Shown piece after piece: positions 4,130 through 63,326 of a stretch of 64,000 nucleotides of DNA. Both the position numbers and the translations under genes were made by a program. The notes beneath the pieces were generated by a model. That model had not been told where the DNA came from and made no database searches. It saw only the letters and a list, made by a program, of their open reading frames with translations. Position 1 is the stretch's first letter. Each line of letters begins with the position of its first letter. Source of the stretch: Phlyctochytrium arcticum (taxonomy: Eukaryota > Chytridiomycota > Chytridiomycetes > Chytridiales > Chytridiaceae); assembly GCA_025602905.1 (NCBI GenBank), contig JAHLKI010000009.1, positions 124,001 to 188,000 of the forward strand, written 5' to 3'.

Positions 4130-4302
4130 GTCTCAGTCGCATCTGAAACTTATAACTTTTGCAGATCTTCTCAGATCGTGTTTCCCTTCAAACTCTTTTC
4201 TCGGAGTCAGAGCATCCAGTACTTCGATAAATCCAGTTCCCCAACTGTGAGACTTCAGCCCCCCTGCCTCTTCTTGCAAAAACCCCGGATCTTCAGTCTG
4301 AA

Positions 4303-6385
4303 ATGTCTCAGCTTCGTGCCGCCAACTATGCTCGTGCAAGAAATTCGTCTTTGTACTATCGCCGCGAACGACTCTTTCATCCCGTCACTGCCGTCCAAAT
4401 CCCCATCGAGGAGTTTGAGGCAGAGTGGAAACTTGGCGACAACTTCTGGACGCAATACAATGTCTACAATTATAAACGCAATGGGAACAAGTTGATAAGT
4501 TACAAGTGCAAATTTGACAAGCATCGCCAATCCAAAGGTAAACGACCCGACAAGGAAGGCGCTCCGCAAAAAAAGAGAAGGATTACAAGCGTTTTCAGTC
4601 AAATTCCATGCACCGCACGCTTGGATGTATTCTTCAACAATTACACCAAGATGGTGACCTTCCAACATCCAACAGGATATGCCGAACACTCTGAAGGACA
4701 CGACATTGGGGATGCTGATGACCGTCATTTATGTGGCCACGCATGCGACCTTATCAAGGCGGAAGCAGAATCGCCCTATGCTCATAAAGACGTTGCAAAA
4801 GCTTTACCCTTGATTATTAAACGTTCAACATCCCCCAACCGTGCCAGCGCCCTCGGTCTAGATCGCATTTCTGCACGTGCTGTGTACAACGCTCGTTGGA
4901 GAGAGCGTCAGGAGCAGGCGGCCCCCCCAGGTTCGCTAGCGGAGGACGCGATGCATGCTATTGACTACTTGTCGGCTGAAGGTTACATCGTCAAGAGGTT
5001 CTTAACGGATAGATCTGACGAACAAGCCGCTGAAGGGTTTGCATTTTCAGTAAAGGAATCATTGAAACTACTTCCCAGCTGTAGTTATTTGGTTTTACTA
5101 GACTCCACCCATAAAACGAACCGATACGACTGGAGACTATTTACATGCATGATCAGAAACCAACAAGGCAGTTGGCTACCAGCGGCGCAGTTCTTTGTCA
5201 GTAACGAAAATGGGGATGCAGTATTCCAGGGCTTGGAGAAAGTTAGAGAAATGGTAGTGGAGGTGTGCGGGGTCGAATGGCAGCCGCGAAACATGCAGGT
5301 TGATCAATCAAACATTGAGAAGAATGGGATTATGCTTGCTTTCCCTGGCATGTCCGCGGGAGAAGAGGAGGTCAAAGTTCGGTATTGTAAGGTAATGTTT
5401 TGATCCGAGTGAAAGAACGCATTTCTATGCTTTGAACTATCATAGGTTCATGTCGCCCGCACTCTCATGCGGCGCATAGGTACGCACAAGCCAACGTATG
5501 CGAAAATGCTTCAGGCAATCAACAAGACCACGATGATTGGAGCCACCGGATTGTTGCGTGAGGCAATCAGGGACGCTCCCGAAAAACTTGCAGATTACCT
5601 CGAGAAGAACTGGACGAACCCCGCCGAGCTCGATTGCTGGACGATGGCCGCACGGCAACATTCGCCAACCCTCCTACAAGTGACCTCGACAAACCCCTTG
5701 GAGTCCTATCACCGATTGGTCAAAGCAGACACTAACTGTGGAAGGTTCTCTAGTATTCAGAAAGCTTGTGTTGGCTTGTGCAAAGTCAATACACAGCGCC
5801 GCCTGGAGGCAGATCGTGCTGAGATCTTGTTTAGGTCAAAGGTTCTGAAGGATACTGAAGACCATCCAAACATAGCTCGATTCCCCTTGCCCATTCAACG
5901 CCTTTTGATCGACCAGTACAGGGCGGTGGAGTACCGACTCGCAAAAGGCAAGCCAGCCCCTGACTACGATACTCTGGATTGTAACTGCCTCTTTGCCAGG
6001 CAATACCTGTTGCCATGTAAACATACCTTTCATGCTGATATGTTTGCAGAGGAGACCATATTGACCGATGAGGTTTGGGATCAGTTTGCACTTTTGTTTG
6101 ATGAGTGTGGTTTTGAGGTATATGAGACGAAGGTTCGCGTAGCAGTGGAACGAGAAGAGGTCAGCCCAGTCGACATACAGAAACTACAGAAAGCGTCAAG
6201 TGAAAGAAGCGGAGGAAAGACTGCTGAATCACTACTTCCGGCTCGAGGACAAAGTTACGGAAGGTGATCCGTTTGCCACCGAGCGACTTACTCAATTCAT
6301 TGAAAATCTGGAAAGTTTTGTTACGGAAGAATCATGCAAAACCTGGACGTTTTCGACACCAACTACTCAAAGCCTAACTAGATAG
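4303..6385 (+). CDS. MULE transposase (FAR1-like N-terminus, DDE core, SWIM zinc finger), C-terminus frameshifted
   Basis: Two exons: 4303-5391 and 5446 onward, with a 54-nt intron in phase 0 (donor gtaatg, acceptor catag). The N-terminus has a FAR1/WRKY-GCM1-like zinc site (YKCKF...CTARL...HSEGH). The DDE core shows LLDSTHKTN (D267) and QVDQSNIEKN (D334), then a C..HV.R stretch across the splice and TNPLESYHR, where the third acidic residue is likely. The SWIM finger is CNCLF then LPCKH, CxC...CxH. The frame runs to a stop at 6267, but near 6190 a second frame opens (QVKEAEERLLNHYFRLEDK and on to 6385) that looks like the natural helical C-terminus of the family. A one-base excess (or two missing bases) near 6190 therefore probably truncated the protein. 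It lies inside the inverted repeats. Confidence 0.8.
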
Positions 6386-51217: not shown

Positions 51218-51290
51218 GGGGAATTAGCTCAAATGGTAGAGCGCTCGCTTTGCATGCGAGAGGCACCGGGATCGATCCCCGGATTCTCCA
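51218..51290 (+). tRNA. tRNA-Ala (TGC)
   Basis: Full cloverleaf of 73 nt without intron. Acceptor GGGGAAT pairs with ATTCTCC (one G-T), D arm GCTC...GAGC, anticodon stem CTCGC/GCGAG with loop TTTGCAT (anticodon TGC), T arm CCGGG...CCCGG with loop ATCGATC, discriminator A. CCA is not encoded. A-box (TAGCTCAAATGG) and B-box (GGGATCGATCC) are present. Confidence 0.97.
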
Positions 51291-55166: not shown

Positions 55167-56016
55167 GAGGCGAAGGCGAACGTTAATAAAATTGAACTTG
55201 AAAGCGGGACCGAGTTGGCGGAGAGGGGTCCACACCCAAGTCTACCAGGCGCATATGGACTGGCAGTAGCCGAGTACAAGAAGGATAGTTGAAGTAATGC
55301 CTTTCTTTGCTGTCAGAATTTCGCTGGTCAATGGACCAGTGTAAAACGACTTTGTTCATCAAGCGCCTGATCAAGCGCCTGCATGTATGATGTATGGCTG
55401 CGCCGTTTCAAGCTCCGACCTATGCGACGGCTGAGATGCCCGTCATGTTTCCCCAAGCTCATCGGTCCTCGCCGACTTTTTTTTTCAAGTTCCCCAAGTT
55501 CACCGCGGATCTGGGGATTCATCATATTTGTCTTGGATGCCGGGGTTCTCGTATTGTCGAGTGGGATTTTGTCATTGGGGTTTTCTGTTTTCAACCTGCT
55601 GGGAGAGCAGACTCTCAGACTGAGAAAGCCAGCGTGTTTGATGTCGCCGGGATGGATGAATCCCAGTTTGTATGATACTTTCCGTTGCTGCTATAAATTA
55701 TTGGGAGAACGTTGATGCAAGTCTGCTCGGATGAAGGCGATACTCCCCTGTGGGTATATTTCAGACATCCTATATTGATTATTGCTGGCGCAATGCCTGG
55801 TGCGTGCAATTGCAAGCGCAACATGAATGAGCTCTCTGAGCGCTGTCATCGCATTGCAAGCCGACGCCGGTACTAAACCCTCCCAAAAGATTTCATGCAA
55901 TATTCCGAAAAAGAGTGTGGGAAAACCCGACATCTTCTCGGTAGAAGTTTCTCATATTTTTGTAATGAGGCCGGCCGAAAACGGGACCATTGGCCGGATC
56001 AAATCAGTTGCGCGGC
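55167..56016. other. intergenic between F-box/LRR and Fanzor
   Basis: About 850 bases. A minus-strand open frame (55328-55594, 88 codons) and a plus-strand one (55394-55675, 93 codons) overlap, and neither has a recognisable domain. An inverted CCAAT (ATTGG) lies at about 55989-55993, about 25 bases before the Fanzor TATA box. I could not find the left end of a Fanzor mobile element here. Confidence 0.35.
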
Positions 56017-56024
56017 TATAAAAA
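56017..56024 (+). promoter_or_regulatory. TATA box of the Fanzor gene
   Basis: TATAAAAA about 120 bases before the ATG, preceded by a GC-rich stretch and an inverted CCAAT. The spacing suggests a transcription start near 56045-56050. Confidence 0.6.
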
Positions 56025-56060
56025 CCTGCTGCTTCCAAGCACCCCTCCCCTTCCTTCAGA

Positions 56061-56128
56061 ACTCCAATCACAAACATCCGACCTTCAATCACAAACATCC
56101 TTCCGACTCCAAGTACAAACATCCTTCA
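56061..56128 (+). repeat. three imperfect tandem repeats in the Fanzor leader
   Basis: Three copies of a 20-24 base unit containing (A)TCACAAACATCC or GTACAAACATCC follow one another directly upstream of the start codon, inside the presumed 5' leader. Confidence 0.7.
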
Positions 56129-56143
56129 TCGTGTTGAGGCCGT

Positions 56144-58514
56144 ATGGGTAAGTACATCTCAGCTTTGAACCCAAATAGCGATATGAGTTTCTCACACTGG
56201 TCCATATTAGCTTCAACTCAAGTACACGTCCCCCCGTTCTGGGACGATGCCCTCCGCTCAGAATACGACCGTTGGTGGAGACCAGAAGAACTCAGCCGAC
56301 AACAACTGTATCCGCGTCCCATCAACAGATATGCATTCAAAGGTCGCAAGAGTTGGTTTCATCACCAGCAATACCTCTATCCCGCTCCCGCTATCGAGCC
56401 GCGCGTTCGTCCAATTGGTAAGTACTGTTCATGACTTTATTGGCAACAACATGGGCTAACAAGATTCAACACTAGTTTCGGGAGTTCCTCAACCACCACC
56501 ACCAAAGCGCCAAAAGAAGGGGAACCCACCATCATCATCAAGGTCCTCCACCGGCAAGTCAAAGAAAGTCACACCCGCCGACAGCGTCCTCCGCATGCGT
56601 CAGCTGCGTTTCTATCCCATCGCCGCACAACGCACTGTTCTCAAGACCTGGTTCGCGGCTGATCGCCACACATACAACTGGGCACTCGGAGTCCTCAAGC
56701 GACAATTTCTGCGCGGAAGGCGTGTGATCAGCCTTCACAAATTTTCGCTCAAACCGACCTTCGTCACCTGTCATCCGTCCCGTGTCCCGCGGAGTCTCCG
56801 TTGGATGAAGGAGACTCCGACTTCCGTGCGGGAGCAAGCTGTCTTTGAACTCGCGGCCGCCTACGAGGCCGCGTTTTCAACTTTCCACCATACCCCCAGA
56901 AAGCCATTCCCTACAATCAAGTTCCGGTCGAAGAAGGCCGGTGAAGCTGCCATCACTATCCCTACAGCAAACTTCAGTAAAACGACTGGAAGAAGATGGG
57001 ACTTCTATATCAAAACGTTCCCCGGCAAGTTGAAGTTCAAAAGGCGGGACATCACCAGAATCATCGACCACCATCCTGATGGACCCATCCGACAAGTCAA
57101 GTTGACCGTGACGCGAACGGGAAAGTTCTACATGCACGTCCCAATATACGTTCCGAAAACAAGGGTCAAGGCAGAGAATCTCGGTCACCTAGTCACGCAG
57201 GACCCAGGCGCCAAGCCCTTCATGAACTATTACGAGGGTATCCACGCGAGTAAACTCTGCGTTATAGATTGACATCACAGTAGGAACAGAGTAATGTGTT
57301 CTGGCTATTTCATTAGATGGACAAAAGTATCTATGCTTCAATTGCTTCAATGATTTCCGAGACCTTCCACAGTCAGGTGGGGTCCGTGACGATAGCCAAG
57401 CGAGGGATTCAAGCGGATGATGGGAACTTTTGCCAGACCAATCGTCTTTGACCAAGCTCAAAAACCCAACTGGAATTCACGCCTCCCGTAAGATCCCCCC
57501 TGGACCCCCCACGCCTTTGTGGCGCCCATGTTGACAGAATTCCCGAGGTACTGCGCAATGTCCGTGAGGTCCCCAGGCAAAAAGGGAAGCATTTAGTCTA
57601 TTACCTTACTACCGCCCAGTCTCCCATCACTTCTCCCCACGCACTACCCACTTCCCAACATACCCTGGCCATTCTTACAACTAATTCCATCGGGCCCTTC
57701 TCCAAAATCACTGGTGTGTGCAATACTCGCCCCCCACAACCGGGCCATCCCCCACCATGAATATCGCCCGGACCTCCATCACTCACCAACTGCCATGCCA
57801 AGATGCAATGTGTTTTCCCATGCTCATGTGTAGGAAACTTGGCTTTGGGACTCGGCCTACGGCTTCGAGGATTGGCCCAAGATTCCAAGATTTTGAGACT
57901 CGGCCTTCGCGTTAAAAACCTTACTTTAATATATAGAACTCGCCAACACGCCTCATCGAGGTTCGTTTGGGCTGGCACAAGACCTGGACAGAATCCACGA
58001 AAAACAATGCGTGTACGACCGGCTCTCCTCCCGACTGACCGCCGCCAATGTCCCCAACCTACCTACTCCCAAGAGGAAAAGGCTCCTTCACCGCCGCCTG
58101 CTCCTACAAGAAAAGGCCCGCAACCTGACCAAGGAATGCATCAATAAGACCGTTTTGTAGTTCACCTCGAACTACGAATTCATCCACGGGTCCGTCTTCC
58201 CGGTCAAGGATATGGTTGAAAAGAAACCCGGGTCCGTCATCCGCGCAAGGACCCGGCGGGATTTGTTAACCTGGCACCACGGCCAGTTCAAGACGGCCTT
58301 GACCAACAAGACCGAGGAAATTATTGGACTGGTTGTCCAGCTGGACGATGAAGCGTACACCACCAAGACGTGCGGCAAATGTGGAACCAGGAACAAAGTG
58401 GGGGGATCAAAGCTTTACCACTGCCCCGTCTGTTTTTATACGGTGCACAGAGATGTAAACGGAGCAAGAAACCAGGGTCTCAAAAATTGTGTGGGACTAT
58501 ATGAATGGATCTGA
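56144..58514 (+). CDS. Fanzor (eukaryotic TnpB-like RNA-guided nuclease) with one in-frame stop
   Basis: Four exons: 56144-56147 (ATG plus one base), 56211-56417, 56476-57237, 57961-58514, about 508 codons. After a proline/lysine-rich linker the N-terminal fold starts LRFYPIAAQRTVLKTWF with the HTYNWAL helix typical of TnpB/Fanzor. The split RuvC has DPG (D313), DDEAYTTKTCGKCG (E455) and VHRDVNGARN (D489); the zinc ribbon Cys are 462, 465, 479 and 482. All three acidic residues survive. Codon 391 is TAG (58158-58160), inside the conserved helix before FTSNYEFIHGSVF; no intron I can find removes it without deleting conserved sequence. Exon 3 to 4 spans 723 nt yet joins in phase into EGSFGLAQDLDRIH. 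Family members are nucleases guided by an RNA from the element's 3' side; here activity is doubtful unless the stop is bypassed. Confidence 0.85.
57238..57960 (+). other. 723-nt candidate intron or insertion inside Fanzor RuvC
   Basis: It begins gtatcc after GAGG and ends catcgag, with phase-1 exons on both sides that fit the family alignment (YYEG then SFGLAQDL). It is about ten times the usual intron length in this window. I see no inverted repeats, target duplication or coding capacity in it. It could be a short intron enlarged by an insertion; a 43-nt GT-AG pair at 57238-57280 would be a normal-sized intron start. Confidence 0.55.
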
Positions 58515-61381
58515 GTCTGTAGGCGTCATCGCACATTTGTACATATAAAGGGCTTGTTATAGGTCCTGGGGTCAAACTCAAAAAACTTTGTGCTTGCGTA
58601 CTTACCCCGGCTGGTTTAGATTACCTGTAGTTTAGACTAGTTTGGCTAGCTGTTTAATATATCGGCCAATTTGCAAGTTATGAAACTCTTTTCCCACCAA
58701 CTTTACTTGGTTGCCGAAATTAGACGGCCGAGTTGGAAAACTGGATTTTACACTCCTACGATGCCTCAATATGCCGACTTTGGCATCTTGCACTCGAATT
58801 AGTGGGAACTGGCAACATCTTGATGATTTGTTCGTGCAGATTTGGCTGGGCAATACTGGGAAATATTGAACTACTTCATAGTTCAGCTCCATGACTTACC
58901 AAGCCTGGGGTTTCGCTTCTTCAGGCCCGCACGTGCAATTCATGTTGTTCCTTCCTTTTGCTCTGATCGTCAGGAAGCCCAACCCGCACGCAAGCCGTTG
59001 AGTGAACGGATTGTGCAAATTCCCTCTTTTAGACGTGAATGACCTATGATGGCGGGCCAGAGGTTCATTTGAATCATTCCATTCATGGCTAAGCACGAGA
59101 TGCATGAATTTAGATGTACACTAATACACTACCTACTGAACAGTTTCACTTTGTGGTTCTCCAGGCTGGTGGCCGGCAGCTTTTCCCGAGAAAATGGTAT
59201 GCGCAACTAATCTCCTCCACGGAACTAGCCAGGAAGTATGAAGACCCCGATAGCGATCAACGATCATAGCCAATCCATCGAATCGTCCACGATGATCGAG
59301 GTCAACCCTACAACCAAAAAACAACACACAAAGTAGTTTGTCTCATATCCACCTTAATGAGCATAAAATGAAGAGATTCCAGAAGCGGGGCCTAAGCAAT
59401 CATTCAGAGCGAGCGGACGTCCAGCGCAATCAGGCATCTACATAAAAAAAGTACTGTCAGTTTCGATAGCCAGCCAAGATAGAGACTCACAATTTGGGTG
59501 GGTTAGTCTTGCCTGGTAGCTACAGTTGTGACCAAGATCTATTGAATAGATATAGGTTTTGCTCTTGCGTCCAGCATTGCCGGATGAAACAGCGAGAGCA
59601 CTTTCCGTAGCCATATCCGTCGAAACCCTGGTCGGAATACCAGGGGTGGGAGGTGGCTTAGGCTCAGATTTTCCCACAGCTTTCGATGTTGGGTCTCGAG
59701 ATGTCCCGATTCGTCGTTTCCACTTCTGGACAATGCTAAACCGCAACGTATAAAACGTGCCTCTACTTAAGTTACCGAGTAAATGGGCAAAGCAGCATTC
59801 TAACACATCGCGGACCATCAGGAGACTTTGGAAACCGCCATCCATTGGCAAACATCTATTACAGCAGATTCGTAAATTAGATGCTTAACCTTCGTGAGCC
59901 TGTAATGGCCCTTGAAACGATCTCACAGCTGGGCAATATGAAAAGCAAGTCAGTGAAAGTATTAACAGTAAAACCGACCTCAACGCAAAATTTTAATGGA
60001 GAAGCAACGGACCAAATCGTAGAAAGTTCGGAGACGCGAGATGCGAGGGCCCTTTTTTTAACAAAGAACGATCGGATATAAAATCTTAAAGGACATGGGG
60101 CAAAAACAGTATACATACCATCCTGAAATCCGATTTGCGGCTGAGCTTTGATGCTGGCGCAAAAGTTGCTCATTAATCACCCACCAGTACCCTGCCACCC
60201 TGGTCTGTATAAAAGTAATCTATCTTCTGGCTTATGCAGCGTTCGATCTCTCAACTGGGAATAGGGTTATACTATTATTTTGAACCACCACATTTTGGTC
60301 CAAACCCCCAGTCCTCCTTTGAGAATGATGGAATTTGTTGTTAGAAGTTGCAGTAGGTGTCAAATTCACGAGTGTCAGCCGGGAGATGGTAATATATCCT
60401 TTGAAAAGTTAGGACTTAAACGCGAGCTAGGTTATTAACGTCTTTGATTACAGCGCTGGCCGAATGCCATTTCTTGTTGTCCTCATGGCTTTCCTTTCGC
60501 TTTGTAAATACAAAACCAGCTCTGCTCTCGTATGGGAATGCACATTGGCTTTATGAGCAATTCCGGCCTTCCCCAGTGGACTTTATTTACCGACTCATTC
60601 CTGGATCTGCCGACCGTGGGAAAATCCGCGCCCATATATGTATTTTCATTCCCAAAAACACACCTGAAATACCAGAGGCTCGGCAGAAAATATCAATTAT
60701 TGCATGGATTTTCTGTGAAGTAGGTCTACAAGTTCTGCTAATGTGCATGCGAACATTCGCCACCCAGCAAGCTTATATTCAGACGTAATCCCAGCATTTT
60801 TCACGCCTTTAACACTTCGTTCCGAACAACTAAAAGCGTCCTGATCATGAAGGTCTCAGATTGAGTCCTTGCCATATGTTCTGTGGCATATCGCTGCTAT
60901 AGTTTGATCACAACCTGGCTGTTCCTTGCTTTTACGATGACAAGCTTAAGGAACCCCCCAATCAGGAATGTTAGCTTTGATAGCCTTCATCTTACAGCCC
61001 ATATCGATCTTCTCATATTTAATAGCTATTGCTGTTCAAACTTGTCTTTCAGATGGGAATAAATAGGAAAGGCAACGAGCAACGGCATGTATGCCGTGCC
61101 AATTGAATTCTGAGAGTGTAGCATGCCCTACAGGCTTACATCTTGACTTTGCAATTGCTGACATGAACCCAAAACCGCAAACGACGAGGGAGCTGTTGTC
61201 CAAGATCATTAGCAATGATCGACGTGTACCGCGCATGTCAGCGCGCATTTCGAAGCACGCGCCCAACAGCCAGCCATCCAAAGCAAATCCCGTCGATTCC
61301 GCCGCAACCCTGCAACCCGCCCGCCCCAGACAACCACCAGAACCAAAACAGAGTTCGTTGACGGCCTTCCTGGAAAGTACA
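58515..61381. other. 2.9 kb gene-poor region after Fanzor
   Basis: No recognised gene. The first 100 bases after the Fanzor stop are where a guide (omega) RNA would be expected from what is known of TnpB and Fanzor loci, but I cannot fold it or find the element's right end. Minus-strand frames at 59438-59851 and 59877-60173, with plausible splice signals (gtatgt near 60117), may be parts of a small spliced gene, but no consistent chain emerged. A plus-strand pair near 60334-60788 is similarly weak. Confidence 0.35.
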
Positions 61382-62109: not shown

Positions 62110-63018
62110 CTACAGGATGCTGGATTTCGCGACATCGCCAATGGGAATAAGGGGCCTGGCCCGTATTCCAGGTGCTGGTGGAATCTTGCTACTGCTCCTC
62201 GCCTGTGATGCTGCTGGTGTGGGTGGTGGTTCATCAAAGAGCCAATCGCGTGCGAAAAACCAGCCTTCCGCAATTAGCACTATCAGCGTTCCAAGGAGAC
62301 TGATCAAGGTTCGCTGAAGTAATGGAGGTTAATCATCTTGCTCTAGCCAGTATTCACGCGACATGCTTACCACGCCCACATCCCTTGACAATGTTCCGGA
62401 AACCCAGAAGACAGCCACGAAAACCGCCACCGCCGAGAATAAAACATTGAACACTGCGGACATTTGCCGTTTTGCATCACGCAAATCAGATCCAATGGAG
62501 CTCAAGATGCCACCAGAGTCATTTTGTGAGGAGGGGGGCGCGACGGAACGGACCATGTTGGCATACGCTTTGTTGTCAAGCGTATCTTGGATCTCAGATA
62601 AGAGCGCAAGAAGCGCTGCGGACTTTATTATCAAGCAAATGTATTTATATAGTGCGTCAATATATCTACATTGTGGAAGTAGATCGCCCTCGCTGCGTAC
62701 CTTTACGATTGGCTTTGGACGGTCCAACCACACCTGACTCCCACGCGTCAGACTCCACAAATCCTGCCTTTCCGACGAAGGGCATATAGATTCCGTGTAA
62801 TTGGTCTTGCGAGAGGATGCTAAGTATTGCGATATTGATTGAATCAGCGTGTGGGTGATGGTTGGTGGAAGATCTAGGTCACTGGTTGTGGCGGAACGTT
62901 CTTGATTCTGTTGCAGACAGTCTTTACACGCCGCACGCAGATCCTTTGGCGCTGTCTCGTCGTCCTGCACGAGCACGGCCACTGTCCGCAGACTTTCGGT
63001 GAGCACCAAGCGGACCAT
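62110..63018 (-). CDS. VMA12: VMA12/TMEM199-type V-ATPase assembly factor
   Basis: Three exons (minus): 63018-62701, 62622-62371, 62313-62110; phases agree, 257 aa. Without the intron 62700-62623 the frame stays open but inserts an unlikely segment between PKPIVK and SAALLALLSEIQDTL. Family features are DLWSLTRGSQVWLDRPKP, the helix ending YANMV, a first membrane helix (VFNVLFSAVAVFVAVFWV) and, across the last splice, RTLISLLGTLIVLIAEGWFF as second helix. VMA12 stays in the ER with VMA21/VMA22 and helps build the V0 sector. The cytosolic tail is Pro/Ala-rich. It is divergent from the RlmN gene about 310 bases away. Confidence 0.85.
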
Positions 63019-63326
63019 GACAGTTATTGTCGTTGTGGACCGTCACTTTTTGAACGTCAACGGAAATATCGTCGAAAGTGAGTGGACCCAGTTCCTGACC
63101 TGAACCTGATTCCTGAACTTCCTGAAAGTCACTTCTCACGTGATACACTTTGTGGTCATTGTTTTTGAACTTTTTGCCAACGTTTTGGACAATGCAAATT
63201 CTCAGGCAACTCAAATAGAGTACAACATATTCGCCGTTCTCCACCACAGTACCTGAAGGCCTGGATCCATAAATTCTACAGCGCGGCGACATTTGAGACA
63301 ATTCCTTACTCCCAGGAGTCCCAGCT
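63019..63326. promoter_or_regulatory. divergent intergenic region, VMA12 / RlmN
   Basis: About 308 bases between opposed start codons. An ACGTGA word lies near 63138 within CTCACGTGAT, an E-box (CACGTG) at about 63137-63142. No TATA box is seen. Confidence 0.45.

Follow-up and report, generated by a model that had tools for sequence, protein, structure and literature searches.

The window analysed here, a stretch of 64,000 nucleotides of Phlyctochytrium arcticum (G000:C9:124001-188000 in the genome that was searched, which comprises 31.48 Mb in 91 contigs), contains on its plus strand, between positions 56144 and 58514, a coding sequence of the Fanzor/TnpB family (i.e. the eukaryotic TnpB family). 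Elsewhere in the window we recovered: i) a MULE transposase domain (PF10551, 35.6 bits) at 4231-6267, within the first of a pair of adjacent open frames, likely a Mutator-like element; ii) a tRNA-Ala (TGC) at 51218-51290, the sole tRNA that ARAGORN reported for the window; and iii) a Vma12 V-ATPase assembly factor (44 bits) at 62329-63042 on the minus strand. The deposited gene model of the Fanzor locus was found by a second protein search. This model, DFS34DRAFT_502721 (P0126; 335 aa), is reproduced letter for letter by the exons 56144-56147, 56211-56417 and 56476-57272; it ends inside a dispersed repeat and includes only the first catalytic residue. The parts of the locus are the following:

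56144..56147, plus strand: mini-exon 1 with the start codon (spliced, it matches P0126 / DFS34DRAFT_502721 exactly)
56148..56210, plus strand: intron 1, GTAAGT...TATTAG, 63 bp (deposited model)
56211..56417, plus strand: exon 2, N-terminal extension (VPPFW...WFHH), in or over which P0001, P0003 and P0004 align (also P0126)
56418..56475, plus strand: intron 2, GTAAGT...ACACTAG, 58 bp (deposited model)
56476..57233, plus strand: exon 3, from HTH_OrfB_IS605 to RuvC-I (PF12323; 74% identical to P0001 over 56568-57236)
57234..57939, plus strand: inserted copy of a dispersed repeat of ~700 bp (genome DNA search, relatives, empty-site join)
57270..57272, plus strand: TGA at which the 335-aa model ends, within the repeat (frame list, P0126)
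57940..57960, plus strand: codons of SPTRLIE, which at the empty site continue the frame of the left flank (frame comparison)
57960..58157, plus strand: RuvC helix region (GSFGLAQDLDRIHEKQ...KTVL; 71% identical to P0001 over 57960-58511)
58158..58160, plus strand: in-frame TAG (sequence)
58161..58514, plus strand: C-terminal part with glutamate 58350, zinc ribbon, aspartate 58452 and TGA stop (PF07282, motifs)

We scanned the frame pieces 56460-57272, 57930-58160 and 58161-58514 against Pfam and recovered HTH_OrfB_IS605 (PF12323) with 26.6 bits, at a cut-off of 21, and the Cas12f1-like TNB domain (PF07282) with 57.8 bits, at a cut-off of 26.3; the middle piece, 57930-58160, matched no Pfam family. 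The signatures described for Fanzors in the excerpt of PMC10711439 (DPG, a repositioned glutamate, and a zinc ribbon followed by an aspartate) were all present: the DPG motif at RuvC-I with its aspartate codon at 57201, the Fanzor-type alternative glutamate at codon 58350, six residues ahead of the ribbon, and an intact CxxC/CxxC ribbon between that glutamate and the last aspartate codon at 58452. In Fanzors it is the repositioned glutamate that has to be tested, rather than the canonical TnpB position. The stretch from the glutamate through the ribbon to the last aspartate (codons 58350-58454) reads EAYTTKTCGKCG...CPVCFYTVHRD. The earlier note had, from the letters alone, placed the protein in the TnpB/Fanzor family, with an N-terminal helix, the acidic residues and a zinc ribbon, and had put the start at 56144 and an in-frame TAG at 58158-58160; the placement holds in the profile search, the start agrees with the deposited model, the residues and the ribbon are present, and the TAG is where it was said to be. 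A continuous coding sequence for the whole nuclease was not found, as it is interrupted by a repeat insertion, a frame slip and the TAG.

The N-terminal half was used as a query and retrieved five relatives (P0001-P0005) that are 40-74% identical to it, two of which (P0001 and P0002) contain MNYYSPTR in full. P0001 and P0002, on public contigs, and P0004, of Borealophlyctis nickersoniae, belong to the same subfamily, with 58-74% identity across the N-terminal half, and, unlike the P. arcticum copy, read through YYSPT with no insertion. All tested motifs are kept in P0001 and P0002; P0004 is a partial model that does not contain the zinc ribbon. A profile of the five relatives, compared with the PDB sequences, best matched 'TnpB-like protein L79' (9b0l; E 2e-25), which we take to be a mimivirus protein, and none of the 28 PDB entries listed for this profile is named Fanzor. 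The structure predicted for P0001 was a poor model (mean pLDDT 37). The locus resembles Fz1 and Fz2 (e.g. SpuFz1 of Spizellomyces punctatus) in the DPG motif, the repositioned glutamate, the last aspartate and the HTH_OrfB_IS605 and TNB domains. For S. punctatus the excerpt of PMC10432273 gives 42 Fanzor loci, 19 of them full-length, so that partial copies occur beside full-length ones. The P. arcticum copy differs from Fz1/Fz2 in that it is broken three times and in that neither a second copy at the DNA level nor element ends were found: a genome search with 55600-59400 found neither the gene nor its flanks a second time among the best 40 of 55 candidates, and nothing convincing in the way of element ends (TIR/TSD) was seen around the locus, where five weak inverted pairs (75-87%) occur. 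A search of 55500-59500 for an adjacent omega RNA or any other Rfam family yielded no match.

On the evidence of the sequence, the Fanzor gene is broken three times, by a repeat insertion, a frame slip and the TAG, and the description of it as being interrupted only by the TAG falls short by two lesions (the repeat at 57234-57939 and the slip at ~57960-57963). The repeat sits exactly where all five relatives run YYSPT unbroken, and the empty-site join that is obtained by removing 57234-57939 reads GAKPFMNYYSPTRLIE, like the relatives. After this join, GSFGLAQDLDRIH continues in another frame. Since the frame of SPTRLIE (from 57940) differs from that of GSFGL (from 57960), a frame slip must lie downstream of the repeat; it amounts to one base lost or two gained at ~57960-57963, between position 57960, where SPTRLIE ends, and the codon for serine at 57963. 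In the alignment, the five relatives have Y, F, Y, H and K at the column of the TAG, and the site is therefore not conserved; the earlier placing of the TAG within conserved sequence holds for its neighbours but not for the column itself. Errors of assembly could account for features as small as the frame slip and the TAG; the suggested sequencing error could likewise explain either of them, but it cannot explain the insertion.

The repeat was found dispersed over the genome. Its ends are uncertain by ~2 bases, as AC occurs at both junctions and 57232-57937 is an equivalent delimitation, and no target-site duplication beyond 2 bases was clear. Besides the query itself, all 86 matches of the DNA search with 55600-59400 (best 40 of 55 candidates scored) lie within ~57210-57937. 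The right part of the repeat (57611-57937) accounts for 79 of these 86 matches, often as neighbouring units. A search with 57225-57720 recovered 21 places, namely the copy in the window, six further long copies on contigs C5, C2, C3, C8, C15 and C25 (66-89% identical) and 14 short partial ones. Six aligned copies, including that of the window, share an abrupt left end and have unrelated flanks, the end being diverged in one copy (L053). The 5' terminus ACGAGGGTATCCACGCGAG occurs at 10 places in the genome with at most 2 mismatches, six of which are exact (window included), as compared to 0 for the reversed control. The repeat matched no Rfam family. It differs from its nearest copy, L051 on C5, at 46 of 672 sites. 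When the remaining copies served as outgroup, changes private to the window copy numbered ~7 among 640 compared sites and those private to L051 ~26, with 2 left unassigned. The time since insertion thus has an upper bound of about 1% neutral change, and because the private change is as low as ~1% the insertion is fairly recent. At 1-2% neutral change 0.6-1.2 nonsense codons are expected over 525 codons (everything from 56144 on was counted as coding, the short intron 1 included), so that one TAG is unremarkable. The 'very recent death' put forward from the single stop is supported only loosely: the ~7 of 640 private sites are an upper bound, and one nonsense codon fits 1-2% change.

A first alternative takes the repeat as a young introner-like intron that is spliced out in phase, in which case only the TAG would stand against a functional protein. 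Introners are intron-forming transposable elements, as described in the excerpt of PMC9860276, and the repeat is like them in that it is dispersed, lies within a gene and has a GT and an AG close to its ends. Splicing from the GT at 57238 to the AG at 57936 would remove most of the repeat and leave a join that is open and in phase with the gene, and by this 57238-57936 splice the insertion and the frame slip might be bypassed in the RNA; furthermore, the 5' end ACGAGGGTATCC is exact at 6 sites, and the nearest copy, L051, has one open join as well. The donor GTATCC is a poor one, however, without the GTAAGT of both introns in the deposited model, which itself leaves the repeat unspliced, and the splice would put EELANTPHR in the place of the conserved SPTR, whose codons are still there in another frame. 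Open joins were found in 3 of 15 cases over four copies (window 2/3, L051 1/6, L052 0/3, L054 0/3), so that two of the three other copies tested, unlike introners, have none; splicing of the repeat at this locus is putative. The flank of L051 encodes no known protein and adjoins a frame that by eye resembles a retrotransposon gag; genome matches of the L051 flanks are the flanks themselves plus one 109-bp match, and they are not copies of a gene elsewhere. We therefore consider it very unlikely that the repeat is a young intron of this gene, and equally improbable that P. arcticum has in the 706-bp repeat an element that makes introns and is spliced in phase from the Fanzor gene. If that were true, Fanzor genes would record introner activity in chytrids.

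Even less probable, in our view, is that the N-terminal fragment of 335 aa has been retained and reused as a gene, i.e. as an RNA- or DNA-binding half of a Fanzor that has no nuclease activity. Its frame of 335 codons is open, contains two ordinary introns and was annotated by the depositors; its end, however, is repeat sequence, and ~1% private change in the repeat leaves little time for a kept new role. Moreover, the C-terminal part (71% identical to P0001) is about as preserved as the N-terminal part (74%), which would be unexpected if only the latter had been kept, and because both halves are similarly preserved the keeping of the N-terminal half alone is disfavoured. Stop readthrough was raised in the earlier note; that the gene is functional because its UAG is read through or recoded in translation we reject as close to impossible on account of stop usage and the upstream lesions: the catalytic residues 3' of the TAG are intact, but readthrough is neither needed nor sufficient since it would not cross the repeat, which like the frame slip lies upstream of the TAG. 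UAG is moreover an ordinary stop: the window's DEAD-box helicase, which over 94% of the query is 100% identical to a P. arcticum protein, ends in its deposited form at a TAG of the window frame, and another TAG terminates a frame of 2612 codons that by eye is HECT-like.

We are thus confident that the locus carries a Fanzor pseudogene, of a subfamily that is seen in chytrids, which has been disabled by the repeat insertion together with the frame slip and the TAG. In the ancestor the reading frame ran unbroken all the way from the N-terminal extension through the zinc ribbon; the ancestral enzyme, going by the function of the family, would have cut DNA guided by RNA from its own element. What disabled the gene is the insertion of the dispersed repeat of ~706 bp, which parts the MNYY codons from those of SPTR, together with the frame slip just 3' of the repeat, as brought out by the relatives, and the nonsense TAG at 58158. 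The annotated frame is predicted to give no more than an N-terminal fragment of 335 residues, which has one of the three catalytic residues. As far as can be read from its letters, the locus is a pseudogene derived from a Fanzor and not a working member of the family, and the relic is an ordinary and fairly young one of a known kind.

We then inspected the genome for other Fanzor loci. The TNB family search listed 15 places, and the protein searches gave 6 (N-terminal half), 12 (P0001) and 15 (P0003) matches, for which only the best candidates were scored. Three further loci of the same subfamily were found, none of which is intact:

C7:142.2-143.2 kb: same-subfamily locus with 2-3 stops; the HTH part is unmatched
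C9:661.4-662.5 kb: same-subfamily locus with 4 TGA and frame changes
C7:392.9-393.8 kb: same-subfamily locus spread over three frames

The expectation that a live copy would likely be present elsewhere in this genome was not borne out, as all three paralogs are broken, and no live same-subfamily copy was found in the searches with the N-terminal half, the TNB family, P0001 and P0003 (best candidates scored only). The search for paralogs that had been proposed thus recovered none that is intact within the subfamily, yet a different Fanzor subfamily, on contig C8, does keep an open frame, of 731 codons (L014:4495-6690). The TNB domain of this frame scores above the cut-off and HTH_OrfB is unmatched; the DPG motif and the alternative glutamate are present by reading, and the ribbon has four residues between its second pair of cysteines and therefore misses the published spacing. 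L014 and L013 (G000:C8, about 349 and 379 kb) are Fanzor loci ~30 kb apart with an identical ribbon sequence. More distant C-terminal pieces were found on C2, C13 and C4 in the P0001 and P0003 searches. Also on C2 (~1.6785-1.6803 Mb; L009:2955-4826), a 623-codon open frame fuses a Copia-type reverse transcriptase (RVT_2, 8e-35) to a Fanzor C-terminal TNB domain (2e-17); by reading, a tyrosine replaces the first cysteine of its zinc ribbon and it has no DPG part.

The practical lesson of the locus is that what appears to be an intron is a repeat insertion, so that more than a single stop separates the gene from an intact one. In this one chytrid genome the Fanzor subfamily is broken at every locus found, and relatives on other public contigs read through. 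This pattern agrees with the birth and death that selfish nuclease genes are expected to undergo, and the general picture is unchanged.
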